Below, piece after piece: positions 808 to 45,614 of a stretch of DNA of 64,000 bases. This stretch comes from a virus. Positions within the stretch are counted from its first letter, which is position 1. Every line of letters begins with the position of its first letter. The stretch is taken from IMG/VR virus record IMGVR_UViG_3300044984_001443, positions 1 to 64,000 of that record; one strand, given 5' to 3'. A program made the position numbers and the translations under genes. The notes beneath the pieces are model-generated. The model ran no database searches and was not told where the DNA came from. It saw nothing but the letters and a program-made list of their open reading frames with translations.

Positions 808-834
808 GTTGCTTAAAATTTAAGCAGTTGTTTA

Positions 835-864
835 ATGCCCGCTGTTGTTCTAGCGGGCATTTTC
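835..864. terminator. bidirectional hairpin terminator
   Basis: A 9-bp stem (ATGCCCGCT, 835-843, with AGCGGGCAT, 852-860) is followed by TTT on the plus strand and preceded by TTT... A/T sequence on the other. It lies between convergent units: the plus-strand gene ending at 807 and the minus-strand unit ending at 868. Confidence 0.75.
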
Positions 865-867
865 TTG

Positions 868-930
868 TCAGACGTTCGCGGCCTTGCCGTTAAACGCTTC
901 CCATCTGTCAAGATTCTCTAGCAAACTCTT
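868..930 (-). pseudogene. displaced 3' end of the gene at 1550-2731
   Basis: On the minus strand, one frame overlapping the end of the HNH gene reads LDRWEAFNGKAANV and then a stop at 868, just before the terminator. The gene at 1550-2731 ends with LDRWTAFNSK plus a different tail. The similarity (LDRW-AFN-K) and position suggest the original end of that gene, pushed downstream when the HNH gene was inserted. Confidence 0.6.
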
Positions 931-1378
931 TGTGATGGACTTTGCGATAATGTCTGGCAGCTTCGGTCGCTTTAGAAAGTTCGTCAAAATAACCAAGGTA
1001 TGTCCCAACTCGAACAATCCACTTCTTATCGCGCTTACACCAATGAACTCCTTTGACACCAGAAGTGTTGTCTTTACGAATAGTGGTATTTCTATTGTTC
1101 TCTGCCCTAGTACAAGCTCGTAGATTTTCAATCCTATTATTGTTTGGATCATTATCAATATGATCAACGATCTCTGGTAATGTTCCGTGGAACATAAGAT
1201 ATATTATCCTATGAGCTTTGAACATTTTATCTCCGATTTGAACTTGGCGATAATTGTACATGCTTCCAGCTCTATCTCCTACTTGGATAGGTCCGTATTT
1301 CTTTCTGACTTTCCAAAACAACAGACCATCGCGGTATTCGAACAGTTCGTTTACTTTCTCTTGGGTGATTTCGTTCAT
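908..1378 (-). CDS. HNH homing endonuclease with AP2-like domain
   Basis: Site-specific DNA endonuclease of the HNH type common in phages (156 aa). The N-terminal module has NELFEYRDGLLFWK. The HNH core follows, with HRIIYLMFHG and VDHIDNDPNNNRIENLR. A C-terminal AP2-like DNA-binding segment contains GVKGVHW and LGYFD. The start at 1378 has AGGAGAAA upstream; an upstream in-frame start at 1477 would cross the structured RNA at 1410-1489. It lies behind the gene at 1550-2731 on the same strand, and its last codons overlap a displaced copy of that gene's end. Confidence 0.85.
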   Translation of the reverse strand: MNEITQEKVNELFEYRDGLLFWKVRKKYGPIQVGDRAGSMYNYRQVQIGDKMFKAHRIIYLMFHGTLPEIVDHIDNDPNNNRIENLRACTRAENNRNTTIRKDNTSGVKGVHWCKRDKKWIVRVGTYLGYFDELSKATEAARHYRKVHHKEFARES

Positions 1379-1409
1379 GGTACTTTCTCCTGTCAAGGGT
1401 TCAAATGGG

Positions 1410-1489
1410 TGCCGGGCGTTTGACACACGGAAAGAGTCGTGCAAATGGTGTTCGGTCGAAACCTCTTGTATTACCATTCACGCCCGGCA
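1410..1489 (-). ncRNA. structured leader, possible three-way junction
   Basis: A perfect 10-bp closing stem (TGCCGGGCGT, 1410-1419, with ACGCCCGGCA, 1480-1489) encloses two further inverted repeats: ACGG.../...TCGTG near 1427-1440 and AATGGT/ACCATT near 1444-1478. It sits in the 171-nt gap between the stop of the gene at 1550 and the start of the HNH gene, in minus orientation. It resembles a structured 5' leader; no known riboswitch family was recognised. Confidence 0.4.
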
Positions 1490-1549
1490 TTGAAACTTGG
1501 AAATCAACTCCTGATGTCGGATGAGTTCACCGCTCTTTCTTAGGTGATG

Positions 1550-2731
1550 TCAAGCACCTGGAGTAATTGTACCACCGTTTTGCTTAGAGTTAAAGGCGGT
1601 CCAGCGGTCCAGAGCCTGCAACTCAATCCGCCGCATCCCGTGGTAATTGTCTTCTTTCTCGTAATCGAAGTAGACGTTCTGCTCATCTTCGGTCATGATG
1701 AGCCAACAACCGATGTGAGGGTTGGTCTTCTGCTCAATTTCTGCGCGGGTCATTGATTTCAAACGTTCGTTGAAGGTGCAATGTTGAGTCAAATACTCTG
1801 CGCGATTGGCATCTTTCTGATTCTGTATGAAGTCTTCGTATGGGACATCGCGATACATATCTTTACAATCTAGAGCGGATTCGAATGCAATCTTGTCTTT
1901 CCAATAAGCGCCATCGACTTCGTATAGATTGTGAGATGGGATGTAATCGTTGTTACCTGACGCTTCTCCGGGCTTGAGAATTATCTTTTTCTTCTCGCTG
2001 TCGTAATCGAACTCGTCATTCTCAATGAGAGACTCAATCAACCGTTCGCGTACCTTGCGTGTGTTGTCGGTGTTTATACCGCGAATGATGCGGAGATTGG
2101 AGAACATCATGAGCATGGTACGGAGTATTTCAGATTGACCAAGGGTGGAAGAATAGAGGTCAATGTCTACCTTGGAACGCAGGTCTTTAAGGGCTTCAAT
2201 AATCGGCGCGATCTGGTTGGTTAAATGACCAACATAATCAATAGGAGATTCAATCAGTGCAAAATTGCGCGGCACATGCGCTGCGACTGTCACGTTCCCA
2301 GTGTTCAAATCGATTTCAATAGTGCTTACGTCGATCTCTTTCAAATTGGCAGCGACGGGGAATTCTTTGTAGAACACCCCTTGGTGCTCAATTGATTGAA
2401 AAAGAGCGCCGAATGGGATCACAGTGCGCCGGCCAATGCGAATGAATCGTCGGCCATCTGGCTCAACTTCTCTACTTATACCAAATAGGAAGACGAAATT
2501 GTTGATGGTTTCAAATTGGTGAGTGTGCGTACCTGCTCGTTTGAATTCAGGTGTACGCATAAAGTCTGCACCTTTTTCATAATACTTTAGCTTGTGTTTC
2601 AATATACTCGATTGAGAATATTTCAAATCTTTGCGGGTCAATAGAGGGATCAGTTCACGGTTCTCATCTAATGTGAAATGGATCTTAATGCGCTTATACA
2701 TACCAAACTCGGCGTGTGAATCGTAGGTCAT
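1550..2731 (-). CDS. unidentified phage protein (393 aa), host of an HNH insertion
   Basis: A soluble protein with alternating charged and aromatic stretches and no motif I can assign. It has a good sigma70-type promoter at 2776-2804 reading into it. It is the first gene of a minus-strand unit that continues into the HNH gene at 908-1378. Its C terminus (LDRWTAFNSK and beyond) is repeated, with changes, downstream of that HNH gene at 868-930, so its present tail may have been replaced by the mobile element. Confidence 0.75.
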   Translation of the reverse strand: MTYDSHAEFGMYKRIKIHFTLDENRELIPLLTRKDLKYSQSSILKHKLKYYEKGADFMRTPEFKRAGTHTHQFETINNFVFLFGISREVEPDGRRFIRIGRRTVIPFGALFQSIEHQGVFYKEFPVAANLKEIDVSTIEIDLNTGNVTVAAHVPRNFALIESPIDYVGHLTNQIAPIIEALKDLRSKVDIDLYSSTLGQSEILRTMLMMFSNLRIIRGINTDNTRKVRERLIESLIENDEFDYDSEKKKIILKPGEASGNNDYIPSHNLYEVDGAYWKDKIAFESALDCKDMYRDVPYEDFIQNQKDANRAEYLTQHCTFNERLKSMTRAEIEQKTNPHIGCWLIMTEDEQNVYFDYEKEDNYHGMRRIELQALDRWTAFNSKQNGGTITPGA

Positions 2732-2775
2732 GTCTGTTTCCTATGTTGTCGGTCGTTAGTCAAGTGACTGGTTGC

Positions 2776-2804
2776 ATTGTACGCTAGTTAAAGGTTAGTT
2801 GCAA
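2776..2804 (-). promoter_or_regulatory. sigma70-type promoter for the minus-strand unit
   Basis: On the minus strand, TTGCAA (2804-2799) and TACAAT (2781-2776) are separated by exactly 17 nt. A short palindrome AGTCA-AG-TGACT at 2758-2769 covers the expected transcription start. The gene begins at 2731. Confidence 0.65.
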
Positions 2805-2814
2805 GCCATTGTTA

Positions 2815-3010
2815 ATTGCTCGGCAGCGCTCCAGTTTAGTGCCGATGTGGCATATAGGGTATTTAAGGTTAGTGATATTGCTTCGATTGGTGGGTGTTAG
2901 CAATGTTTATTACGCCAGCCAATATGTGCTTTGTAAAAAGCTGGCATATATTACGAGCCTAATAGCTAAATGTTTAATTTTTAACTTTGTAGGTGATTGT
3001 TTTTATTGGG
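2815..3010 (+). repeat. dispersed non-coding element, copy A
   Basis: This segment aligns with 41955-42120. Shared blocks are TAGTGCCGAT and CATATAGGG, a TTAG...GTTTATT...GCCA block, an AAAAAGC-GGCATATATTAC-AGCCTAA block, and a terminal GTTTTTATTGGG. No convincing reading frame spans it. It is part of a gene-free stretch (2732-3817) that also holds the palindrome, iterons and Fur-like site listed separately. Confidence 0.7.
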
Positions 3011-3052
3011 TTTGAATGGTTGTGTCTTTTAAAGTTGGATGGGTATCGATTT

Positions 3053-3069
3053 ATGCAACTAAGTTGCAT
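3053..3069. promoter_or_regulatory. 17-bp palindrome, candidate operator
   Basis: ATGCAACT-A-AGTTGCAT. The same two 8-bp arms with a C in the centre recur at 4414-4430, on the other side of the gene at 3818-4279. Two identical arms about 1.35 kb apart suggest a shared binding protein. Confidence 0.5.
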
Positions 3070-3199
3070 TTGTAAGCAGTATGCAAAAAACGTAATACTG
3101 CTTAATTTTTGAGTCATAATGAGAATGAAGGACTAAATGAAGTTGAATCGAAGTTTAGTGATTTCAGTGGAATTTGTTTGTTTGTTGAATAAATGTTCG

Positions 3200-3481
3200 T
3201 TGTCACTCAGCATTTTGAAATAGAATATTATTAGGGTTGAAAATTGATGTGAGGAGACGATATGGAAGAGGATCGGACGAGTTTAGAGCAGCCAACTGTT
3301 CGACCTCCAGAGATTATACGACCGTTGACCTCAAATCGACTCAATTGATTATACGACCGTTGACCTCAAATCGACTCAATTTAGTCAGCCCAACTTCCAT
3401 TGATCTTTTGAAATTCCGATTATACAAGAATATCAGACATTTGATCTATCGTCATTGTCACTCAGCATTTTGAAATAGAAT
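3200..3481 (+). repeat. 27-bp direct repeat, two copies
   Basis: The 27-bp sequence starting TTGTCACTCAGCATTTTG occurs at 3200-3226 and again at 3455-3481, with no mismatch. A degenerate unit (GAGACGATAT then GAGGATCGGACGA) follows both copies, at 3253 and 3508. Confidence 0.75.
3312..3381 (+). repeat. 35-bp perfect tandem duplication
   Basis: Two identical 35-bp units, 3312-3346 and 3347-3381, each beginning GATTATACGACCGTTGACC. No unique spacer separates them, so it is a tandem duplication and not a CRISPR array. Each unit carries one GATTATAC iteron. Confidence 0.85.
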
Positions 3482-3611
3482 TCTTTAGATCATGAGATCT
3501 GTTGATCGAGACGATATAAGAGAGGATCGGACGATTATACAGATCATCGATTATACAGATCGTTTGATCTAGCGACAATTTGACTTCTGCTGATCCCGAG
3601 ATCGCCTGATC
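3312..3611. other. candidate replication origin: iterons and GATC cluster
   Basis: GATTATAC occurs five times (3312, 3347, 3418, 3533, 3549). The two last are followed by AGATC, giving TTATACAGA, one mismatch from a DnaA box TTATACACA. GATC occurs ten times in 3488-3611, several at exact 8-nt steps (3488/3496/3504, 3558/3566, 3592/3600/3608). Iterons plus dense Dam sites in a gene-free stretch are typical of origins. Functional assignment is inference. Confidence 0.4.
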
Positions 3612-3817: not shown

Positions 3818-4279
3818 ATGAAAAACGCTACTGCCACCAAGCCTGCCACCAAGCCTGCCACCAAGCCTGCCACCAAGCCTGCTCCCGCTAATGCTATGGC
3901 GCAACTTGCCGCCGCCGCTGTGCAACCCGTTGCTGTGCATACCCCGTTGCCGCAAGTTGCTCCGGATTCCTTGGTTACGGCGTTGGCAAGCGAGCAGCTG
4001 GAGCCGCTGCTGGGTTGTAACAACCAAAGCAGCTTTTGGAAAACCCATGCGCGGCAAGTTGGCAAGCCGCTGCCGGAGGAATGGTCCGCTGGCTTTACAC
4101 TGGGTAAACTGGCAAAAGGTCCGTGTGGTGTAGTTGGTAAGGCGGACCGGGAGTTGGCTACCTTGGCAATTGCCGCCAGTGTAAACGGTACGCTTACGGC
4201 ACAAGCCGCACGGGAAATTGGGCTTGCGCCCCACAACATACACGCATGGCTTAAACGCGGCTGGATTAATAAAGCGTAA
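3818..4279 (+). CDS. possible DNA-binding protein with KPAT repeats (153 aa)
   Basis: ATG at 3818 follows TAGGAG. Residues 5-22 are four copies of ATKP, encoded by a 12-bp tandem repeat (3837-3884), then an Ala/Pro-rich linker. The C-terminal 40 residues (LTAQAAREIGLAPHNIHAWLKRGWI) look like a helix-turn-helix. A basic Lys-Pro-Ala tail followed by a small domain recalls histone-like phage or bacterial proteins, but no family is recognised. The gene stands alone with its own promoter, palindrome and terminator, and Fur-like sites lie on both sides. Its GC content is higher than that of its surroundings. Confidence 0.65.
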   Translation: MKNATATKPATKPATKPATKPAPANAMAQLAAAAVQPVAVHTPLPQVAPDSLVTALASEQLEPLLGCNNQSSFWKTHARQVGKPLPEEWSAGFTLGKLAKGPCGVVGKADRELATLAIAASVNGTLTAQAAREIGLAPHNIHAWLKRGWINKA

Positions 4280-4832: not shown

Positions 4833-5333
4833 TCAGCAATGTTCATGACAAAATTTTCCAAAAATTTCAAAAATTTCAGAACTCGCCACTTCTTTAAATT
4901 TAGATCCGTAATATGCAATCGCCTCAAATATAGCCGACTGCTTATTTGAAAAATTACCAAGACTCACAGTCTTTCCATCTTCCTCAACAACCAATCGCCA
5001 AATACCGTGATGTCTAGTTAAACCGACGATACCCGATCGGTTCGCTTTCCTTAAATTTTCAGAATTCGAAACTTCTTGAAGATTCTCTATTCGATTGTTT
5101 AAACGATTCTCATCAATATGATCAACGATCTCTGGAACATGACCGTGGTGCATTAGATAAATCAAACGATGAACTCTGAACTGCTTATTATCAACTCCGA
5201 CATAGACGTAACCTTTTGCCTTCACACAACCTGCCTTCTTACCTTTCATTTTCGTATTGACATCCTTCCAAACCAAATTGCCATCTTTGTAATAGAAAAG
5301 TTCATTTAATCTTTCAACAGTCGGCTCATTCAT
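4833..5333 (-). CDS. HNH homing endonuclease (166 aa)
   Basis: Same family as the HNH gene at 908-1378: N-terminal NELFYYKDGNLVWK, then HRLIYLMHHGHVPEIVDHID and NRLNNRIENLQ, then a degenerate AP2-like segment (VGLTRHHGIW, SLGNFSN). Start at 5333 with AGGAGAG upstream. It stands alone on the minus strand between a gene-free region and the terminase operon. Its 3' end is very AT-rich, and a similar AT-rich sequence lies beyond its 5' end. Confidence 0.85.
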   Translation of the reverse strand: MNEPTVERLNELFYYKDGNLVWKDVNTKMKGKKAGCVKAKGYVYVGVDNKQFRVHRLIYLMHHGHVPEIVDHIDENRLNNRIENLQEVSNSENLRKANRSGIVGLTRHHGIWRLVVEEDGKTVSLGNFSNKQSAIFEAIAYYGSKFKEVASSEIFEIFGKFCHEHC

Positions 5334-5481: not shown

Positions 5482-6123
5482 ATGGCCCGACCTAGAAAGC
5501 GCAAACAGCAAGACGACGACCACACCCCGCCATTCGAATTGGGTGAAGACTTTGTACCTGAGGTAGTCAAACCGTTTGTTCCTAAGCGTTACAACGCCGA
5601 AGGCGAACTATTGACCGATGTCGTGGGTGGCGAGAACGGCCCTGTCGGACTTGGACGTGATCCATTGGTTGCTCAGTATCTCCTACCCGAATGGTCTAAG
5701 AACATAAGCGACGCGCTAATCAATCAGGCAAATATCAAGGGTAGTCCTGGATTTGATCCAGGATTTGAGCAAGCGAAGCAGGTAGAACAAATGACCGCAT
5801 TGGGCCTCAGTGTCCAAGACATTGCCGCGACCTTGAGAATTGAACCCAAGCTCCTTGAGAAGTATTACAAGTACGAGATTGAGACATCTGCCCAACGTAT
5901 CAATCAAGCGGTAGCCAAAGTCGCCCTCCAAAGCGCCCTCGGAGGAGATACGGATATGGTCAAATTCTGGCTCAAGACTCGAGCTGGATGGAAGGAGACG
6001 AAGGAAGTTCAGATGACCGGAGCCAACGGAGGACCTATCCAATTTCAGGAAGTCAAGGCGAACTTCTTGGCCTCTATTGAAGCTGAGATCACCGACATTG
6101 ATTACGAAGAAGACTCGAAATAA
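5482..6123 (+). CDS. terminase small subunit-like protein
   Basis: A 213-aa protein two genes before the large terminase. Residues 105-170 contain a helix-turn-helix-like segment (MTALGLSVQDIAATLRI) and then helices ending in MVKFWLKTRAGWKE, a layout typical of phage small terminases that recognise DNA and recruit the motor. The N terminus is a basic tail (ARPRKRKQQ) and the C terminus is acidic. TACAAT at 5429-5434 may be its -10, with a weak -35. Family assignment is from pattern and position. Confidence 0.7.
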   Translation: MARPRKRKQQDDDHTPPFELGEDFVPEVVKPFVPKRYNAEGELLTDVVGGENGPVGLGRDPLVAQYLLPEWSKNISDALINQANIKGSPGFDPGFEQAKQVEQMTALGLSVQDIAATLRIEPKLLEKYYKYEIETSAQRINQAVAKVALQSALGGDTDMVKFWLKTRAGWKETKEVQMTGANGGPIQFQEVKANFLASIEAEITDIDYEEDSK

Positions 6124-44523: not shown

Positions 44524-44536
44524 TATAGGTGCTATA

Positions 44537-45046
44537 ATGGAAAAAGAATTTACGTTGAAAGACTTGATTTTTGCTGCAAAGTTGCAACAGGAGCTTGAGA
44601 ATCAACTCATTAACGAAGAAAATAGGTTGAAAGAAATAAAAGAACAATTGAACTACCAGCGGTACGAAATTGTTCCTGGGATGATGCAAGAACTTGGTAT
44701 CAACTCATTTGAACTTGACAACGGTTACAAGGTGTCAATCAAGGATGAGTATTACGCCAAGATCCCTGAAGCGTTTCAGTATGAGTGTTTCGAGTGGTTG
44801 CGTAAGAACGAACTTGACGGCATTATCAAAACTGCGGTAAACATGAATTTTGGCAAGGGTGAAGATGAATCTGCTCAACATCTGATTGATTGGATGACTG
44901 AGAACGGTTTAACACCTAATGTCAAAGAAACTGTTCACCCGCAGACCCTCCGCGCCTTTGTAAAGGAAAGGTTATCTAATGGTTTGGAACTTCCTATTGA
45001 CTATTTTGGAGCTTCAGTAGTAAAAACTACTGTTATTTCAAAATGA
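44537..45046 (+). CDS. early protein (169 aa) with replaced C-terminal tail
   Basis: Start 44537. N-terminal coiled coil (residues 12-45), then QELGINSFELDNGYKVSIKDEYYAKIP and a tail VHPQTLRAFVKERL...FGASVVKTTVISK. Proteins with this tail are conserved in phage replication regions; function unknown. The HNH gene starts on its stop codon, and the same C-terminal 30 residues are encoded again behind the HNH gene with different codons. Its present 3' end is AT-richer than the rest, like the HNH gene. Confidence 0.75.
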   Translation: MEKEFTLKDLIFAAKLQQELENQLINEENRLKEIKEQLNYQRYEIVPGMMQELGINSFELDNGYKVSIKDEYYAKIPEAFQYECFEWLRKNELDGIIKTAVNMNFGKGEDESAQHLIDWMTENGLTPNVKETVHPQTLRAFVKERLSNGLELPIDYFGASVVKTTVISK

Positions 45047-45603
45047 AACTTATCGATTTGGAAAGATTGAAAGAACTTCTGGACTATGATCCAGAAACAG
45101 GTTTGTTTAAGTGGAAGGTTCATTTAAAATATTCTCCAAGATACGAAGGTGACTTGGCAGGTTACAATAATGAAGGTTATGTTAAGATAACCATCGACGG
45201 CCTATCTTATAGAGCACATCACTTAGCATGGTTTATAACTACTGGAAATTGGCCCAAGTTAGAGATTGATCATATTAATGGTGACAAATCTGACAATTCA
45301 ATCTCTAACCTCAGAGATGTGACCAGAATTGTCAATATGCACAACAAAGGTGAATACAAAAATAACAAAACAGGATACACAGGTGTTCACTGGTATCCTA
45401 GATATGAAAAGTTTGCAGCACAGATAAGAACTAATGGTAAGTGTAAGACGTTAGGTTATTTTGAAACCGCTGAAGAAGCTCACGAGGCTTATCAAGAAGC
45501 CAAACTGAAACAACACCCTTCAGCGTTTGTTAAAGAACGTATGTCGGCAGGTCTTGAACTACCTGTTGACTTTTCGGAGCCTCTGTCGTTAAAACGACGG
45601 TGA
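45043..45603 (+). CDS. HNH homing endonuclease with AP2-like domain, 3'-inserted
   Basis: 186 aa. N-terminal LLDYDPETGLFKWK, HNH core AHHLAWFITTGNWPKLEIDHING and NSISNLRDV, then AP2-like TGYTGVHWYPRYEKF and LGYFETAEEAHEAY. ATG overlaps the stop of the preceding gene (ATGA). The frame runs on into a remnant of that gene (AFVKERMSAGLELPVDF) before a frame difference ends it. AT-rich codons differ from the surroundings. Confidence 0.88.
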   Translation: MKLIDLERLKELLDYDPETGLFKWKVHLKYSPRYEGDLAGYNNEGYVKITIDGLSYRAHHLAWFITTGNWPKLEIDHINGDKSDNSISNLRDVTRIVNMHNKGEYKNNKTGYTGVHWYPRYEKFAAQIRTNGKCKTLGYFETAEEAHEAYQEAKLKQHPSAFVKERMSAGLELPVDFSEPLSLKRR

Positions 45604-45614
45604 TTTCGAAGTAA
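45523..45614 (+). pseudogene. displaced original 3' end of the gene at 44537
   Basis: Adding one T in the TTTT run at 45571-45574 restores DFFGASVVKTTVISK and a TAA at 45612-45614. From AFVKER on, 26 of 30 residues equal the tail of the gene at 44537, but 17 of those 26 use another codon. It is no longer joined to its gene body and partly serves as the HNH C terminus. Confidence 0.8.

Follow-up and report, generated by a model that had tools for sequence, protein, structure and literature searches.

In a 64,000-nucleotide stretch of DNA (hereafter the window) from a virus record of 69,607 bases, a cassette with an HNH endonuclease gene is inserted at a single point in the 3' part of a gene, and the native end of that gene now lies beyond the HNH gene. 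The upstream open reading frame (ORF) ends in another version of the native end, divergent in DNA and conserved in protein. The same type of gene-end replacement, at the 3' or the 5' end, was found in a survey at about ten other phage loci, with targets that include the large and small terminase subunits, ThyX and a RecA-dependent nuclease. We interpret the cassette (1612-913), in which a replacement 3' end precedes the HNH gene, as a homing-type HNH element, and give this reading a probability of about 0.84; cleavage and homing are inferred from the sequence, as no cleavage, homing or expression data were available. Such an element would account for a selfish nuclease gene residing in essential phage genes without the help of an intron or intein.

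Structure of the first locus

The locus around 908-2731 was named W1 and the locus at 45 kb of the window W45 (Table 1). The product of the W1 target gene has the C-terminus ...ELQALDRWTAFNSKQNGGTITPGA, followed by a stop. No family match was obtained for it in Pfam and PHROG profile searches, and blastn and tblastn searches with the gene against cultured phages gave no matches. An AlphaFold model from four sequences reached a pLDDT of only 33 and was not used. Three relatives that lack the HNH gene were identified by tblastn on contigs L002, L003 and L004 (90, 85 and 77% identical, respectively). They terminate in ELQALDRWEAFNGKAANV, QAIDRWEAFNGKFGA and QAIDRWKAFNGLV, each before a stop, and these termini contain LDRWEAFNGKAANV, IDRWEAFNGKFGA and IDRWKAFNGLV, respectively. 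The limits of the cassette were inferred from these relatives with a precision of a few bases.

Table 1. Features of the W1 and W45 loci (window coordinates)
Feature	Coordinates	Strand	Remarks
Target gene of W1, now chimeric (native body and replacement 3' end)	1550..2731	-	393 aa; homologs L002-L004 aligned
Replacement (imported) 3' end of W1, LDRWTAFNSKQNGGTITPGA and stop	1550..1612	-	67% identical to L002 native end vs 91% for the body
Inserted cassette (replacement end, spacer, HNH gene)	913..1612	-	~700 bp; absent from L002, L003, L004
Structured spacer RNA resembling Rfam RF02221 (sRNA-Xcc1)	1402..1489	-	46.4 bits, E 1.3e-7, full length
HNH endonuclease gene	908..1378	-	156 aa; PF13392 E 1.3e-17, PHROG_99 E 6.6e-58; AGGAG upstream
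Left-behind native 3' end of W1, LDRWEAFNGKAANV and stop, own start missing	868..912	-	14 codons
Hairpin with T-run on + strand	834..861	+	Equivalent hairpin after the native gene end in L002, L003
Target gene of W45 (DUF7307, Pam3 gp33-like) with replacement 3' end	44534..45046	+	PF23984 E 2.7e-33
Replacement 3' end of W45	44954..45046	+	vs left-behind copy: 17 silent and 4 amino-acid-changing codons of 30
HNH/AP2 endonuclease ORF extending into left-behind native end	45043..45603	+	PF13392, PF00847
Left-behind native 3' end of W45, 1-bp deletion	45523..45614	+	Final 39 nt identical to HNH-free L011

A preliminary description of this DNA had noted a displaced LDRW-type frame behind the HNH gene, overlapping its stop, and had predicted that homologs without the HNH gene would end with the displaced tail. 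The frame was confirmed at 912-868, with the HNH stop codon (910-908) falling inside the left-behind end in a different reading frame, and the predicted tail was seen in all three relatives; ITPGA-like tails, which would have refuted the proposal, were present in 0/3. The left-behind DNA matches the native end of L002 at 37/42 nt and that of L003 at 29/30 nt. The W1 gene finishes with LDRWTAFNSK..., and this upstream end shares only 20/30 nt with L002, whereas the preceding 300 nt of the gene are 91% identical (P=7e-4 for end versus body). The native end was thus displaced and the gene re-ended. The interpretation offered in the preliminary description is therefore supported, in addition to its observation being confirmed.

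The same description had the native end running straight into a terminator. A GCCCGC hairpin does follow the native ends of L002 and L003 directly, but since the T-run of the 834-861 hairpin lies on the + strand, it most plausibly serves to terminate the convergent + strand gene, perhaps acting in both directions.

The two LDRW segments of W1 have 20/30 nt and 8/10 amino acids in common. The likeness is confined to about 10 codons, and the preliminary description had already called it shorter than at 45 kb; beyond them the tails diverge (QNGGTITPGA in the replacement, AANV in the native end). The 10 codons alignable with the native end contain 3 silent and 2 amino-acid changes. With so few similar codons, and with every HNH-bearing case coming from metagenome contigs, chance similarity or an assembly chimera might be suspected. 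We regard both as highly improbable, because separate contigs agree: L001 has the W1 arrangement with 1 mismatch in 2,300 nt, which rules out a one-off assembly error, and the W45 arrangement is carried by three separate contigs (L008, L009 and L010) and, in a diverged form, by L037. Moreover, the W1 match was never equalled in shuffled flanks (see below), and HNH-free relatives with empty sites exist for four target genes.

The product of 908-1378 passes the PF13392 (HNH_3) cut-off and thus belongs to the HNH_3/PHROG_99 family; D72 and H73 are invariant in the HNH protein alignment. A scan of genome contigs detected no relative of this HNH gene.

Replacement end and HNH gene are separated by a spacer of 171 nt that folds as a stable hairpin. 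Its match to RF02221 is below the gathering score (46.4 vs 53 bits); no blastn relative of it was found in phages or plasmids, and no such match was present at 13 other HNH loci examined. The stable fold, together with a coding sequence interrupted by an endonuclease-bearing insertion as in mobile introns, is what would be expected if the HNH gene resided in a self-splicing intron or intein. The native end would then serve as 3' exon or extein, and mere read-through would account for the upstream tail. However, no Rfam intron match was obtained in the window, nor at 860-1700 with relaxed thresholds, and without an intron RNA core the locus does not qualify as a group I or II intron. The upstream ORF is closed by a stop at 1550, the HNH gene has a start and stop of its own, and no continuous frame passes through the flanks, as an intein would have. 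Read-through would not yield a copy of the 3' exon that is divergent at silent sites, and the remnant at W45 is frameshifted, so that splicing could not restore it. An intron or intein is hence very doubtful.

A second locus at 45 kb

The preliminary description had equated the architecture of W1 with that at 45 kb. This holds, as the HNH-free relatives of the W45 target gene (L011-L016) also terminate in the displaced version (FVKERMSAGLELPVDFFGASVVKTTVISK, with at most one substitution). The left-behind copy matches L011 at 39/39 of the last nucleotides and at 46/51 of the preceding part, and its frame is broken by the deletion; the replacement end matches the native one at only 29/39. The contrast between body and end falls short of significance at W45 (P 0.2-0.6), because the gene body itself has diverged from the HNH-free relatives. 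This divergence climbs gradually toward the gene end from about 44800, from which it appears that the imported tract probably extends into the body. L037 contains the W45 target gene again, in the same arrangement with yet another end and with an HNH protein that is 72% identical.

The left-behind ends could in principle be translated and act in trans, giving genes in pieces. There is a precedent in phage Aeh1, whose nrdA is split by an HNH insertion with function kept (cited in PMC2988022). The remnants found here are only ~14-30 codons long, fused to the HNH ORF, out of frame or startless: that of W1 has 14 codons without a start and that of W45 is frameshifted, so that neither qualifies as a gene of the Aeh1 nrdA type. 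As a full replacement end is already present upstream, we see little room for this possibility.

Survey of HNH loci

HNH genes from IMG/VR (among the matches listed) and a few loci from cultured phages were assembled into 222 non-redundant loci with flanks; the sample was not random. Each locus was scored by the best ungapped protein match (BLOSUM62) between 300 bases upstream and 120 bases downstream of the HNH gene, with a threshold of at least 50. A flank duplication was found in 11/222 of these loci, or about 5%: W1 (L001), W45 (L008), L037, L154, L028, L044, L042, L057, L089, L090 and L060. W1 itself scores 50, a value that none of ~3,300 shuffled flank pairs (15 rounds) reached. When the HNH genes were ranked with a model built from those of the window and phage relatives, 9 of the 11 loci were within the best-scoring 107. 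The diversity of a mixed HNH alignment made it unsuitable for scanning the collection. None of 24 sampled HNH genes from cultured phages had a duplication near the HNH gene.

Weaker cases (L053, L170, L189 and L113) were left out of the 11. Enterobacter phage ENT1 gave a flank score of 52 that was dropped, the match lying >200 bp from the HNH gene on both sides, and L105, L094 and L062 from a wide-flank survey were dropped as GC-rich low-complexity matches. In L069 (-), two HNH genes directly follow each other at about 2100-3588 (reversed strand), and their mutual similarity registers as a flank match.

The preliminary description had also argued for a general mechanism used by an HNH/AP2 family. 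The nine further loci, eight of them in other genes, bear out the generality, but not the link to AP2, for which a Pfam search of the 908-1378 protein gave no match. By HMM search, the targets are the terminase large subunit (TerL) in L154, ThyX (thymidylate synthase) in L028, the terminase small subunit in L060 and a RecA-dependent nuclease in L057. By eye, the target looks RusA-like in L044 and Gp157-like in L090, without a Pfam match for either.

Six of the loci (W1, W45, L037, L154, L028 and L044) are of the 3' type, with the native end behind the HNH gene, and in 6/6 the HNH ORF ends at a stop codon supplied by the left-behind end. The other five (L042, L057, L089, L090 and L060) are mirrored: a 5' stub precedes or opens the HNH ORF, which is followed by the gene with a new start. 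The weaker case L053 (score 43) is a ThyX gene affected at its 5' end; HNH insertions thus occur at opposite ends of ThyX in different phages (3' end in L028, 5' end in L053). In L334, an HNH gene lies downstream of a terminase homologue without a duplicated end, and an HNH neighbour alone is therefore no proof of the feature. The sequence TTGACAG at the W1 and TerL junctions and TTAAAG at 45 kb could be a junction motif, which we do not claim, three sites being too few.

Comparison with HNH-free relatives

The HNH gene is present or absent at a fixed site, being missing in L002-L004 for W1, in L011-L016 for W45 and in L285-L288 for TerL. Eighty homologs of the L154 terminase were fetched, among which only one contig, represented by both L154 and L284, had the duplication. 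Compared to the HNH-free L288, the left-behind end of L284 matches at 70/72 and the replacement end at 51/72; the TerL body is 96% and the end 70% identical (P=1.6e-10). In the 5' case L042, HNH-free homologs agree with the left-behind stub in as many as 62/66 positions and with the new start in 40/66; beyond codon 26, the L042 body shares 96% identity with L370 (P=4e-12).

These values bear on another scenario, a simple tandem duplication of the gene end in which the HNH gene landed between the copies and the upstream copy drifted later. It would predict that the downstream copy, free to drift, had diverged, but at W1, 45 kb, TerL and L042 that copy matches the native DNA and the copy in the working gene diverges. 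In addition, at W1, TerL and L042 the gene bodies are 91-96% identical to the HNH-free relatives and differ significantly from the ends in this respect. In L028 the copies behave as expected from a recent local duplication, being 86% identical without an excess of silent changes (P 0.11), and L028 may be such a duplication. As a general explanation tandem duplication is improbable, albeit somewhat less so than the other alternatives considered here.

In most cases the changes in the replacement ends are mostly silent. Under a simple random-substitution model, the silent excess in W1, W45, L037, L044, L042, L057 and L089 has P values from 5e-5 to 3e-3, which supports a function of the new end; it is weaker in L284 and L090 (P 0.01-0.02).

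Proposed mechanism and related systems

If the cassettes are homing-type elements, the HNH enzyme would cut the unoccupied gene end, and repair from an element-bearing genome would copy in the cassette via homology on either side. The carried end would keep the target gene whole, so that insertion leaves it unbroken, and would itself escape cutting by its different DNA spelling. Such spelling would be useful, as an exact copy beside the body would rebuild the uncut site and create a deletion-prone direct repeat. A divergent homologue of the target gene would be its simplest source; no donor was identified for any replacement end. It is somewhat more probable than not that phages harbour a class of homing elements for which the differently spelled end, 3' or 5', is a functional component that repairs essential genes (terminases, ThyX) upon insertion and makes the occupied gene uncuttable.

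The closest known systems are the mORF gene hybrids of fungal mitochondria, described for atp6 of Allomyces macrogynus and for atp6, atp9, cox2 and nad3 of Glomus sp. (PMC3630166). In Glomus, carried and native ends are 64-81% identical in DNA and 94-100% in protein. There, too, an endonuclease ORF sits in an essential gene, with the native carboxy-terminal part downstream and a divergent, protein-conserved end fused to the gene. Judged against HNH-free relatives, W1, 45 kb and TerL share the native end downstream of the endonuclease ORF. They also share a carried end that is in frame, divergent in DNA and conserved in protein, the contrast being significant in W1 and TerL and not at 45 kb. 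They differ in the enzyme and the genome, HNH in phages instead of LAGLIDADG or GIY-YIG in mitochondria, and mirrored 5' cases occur in addition. We therefore consider the phage cassettes to function like mORFs without classing them as such. The parallel with different enzymes suggests convergent evolution of one solution.

In mitochondria of Tremella fuciformis, introns with host-gene duplication have been described whose splicing is perhaps lost (PMC7315562). These mobile elements likewise import a divergent host-gene segment in place of the resident one, but they are called introns, whereas no intron RNA was found at the phage loci. The free-standing endonucleases of T4-like phages are described in a review as intergenic and as cutting hundreds to thousands of bases away (PMC2988022); in common with them, the HNH genes spread among phages without an intron. 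The insertion in Aeh1 nrdA, cited there, is that of mobE; it leaves two working halves and supplies no new end. Term searches of two recent papers on phage HNH and homing endonuclease genes (PMC10448857, PMC12724721) found no mention of duplicated gene ends, and no phage example of the architecture was found in the literature searched, most subscription papers being outside its scope. Read as homing elements that carry a divergent replacement end, the phage HNH cassettes match an architecture already known from fungal mORFs.

An engineered analogy is the HomeR home-and-rescue drive (PMC7968924). It too is a nuclease element, aimed at the 3' end of the coding region in an essential gene, whose final 22 or 27 residues it carries in re-coded form, but being a synthetic Cas9 design in Drosophila it is a mechanistic analogy and not kin. 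At the phage loci, the recoded-rescue logic of gene drives could be tested in a natural setting. If the carried end is indeed a working part, they would be the natural counterpart of home-and-rescue drives, and ends of core phage genes would be reshuffled among lineages. Gene-end swaps in phage core genes are predicted to be traces of such elements, and a short gene fragment adjoining an HNH gene to mark the insertion site; likely HNH homing target sites could then be read from the sequence alone.

Other HNH genes in the virus record

A third HNH gene of the window (4833-5333, -) encodes a protein 53% identical to that of 908-1378 over 106 aa. It is oriented divergently to the adjoining ORF 5482-6123, and no conspicuous flank duplication was seen there in the survey. 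A fourth HNH_3 match lies in the same virus record outside the window, within a 234-aa ORF (G000:C1:67143-67313, +; L417). The window ORF at 3818-4279 (+) starts with a repeated peptide, ATKPATKPATKPATKP.
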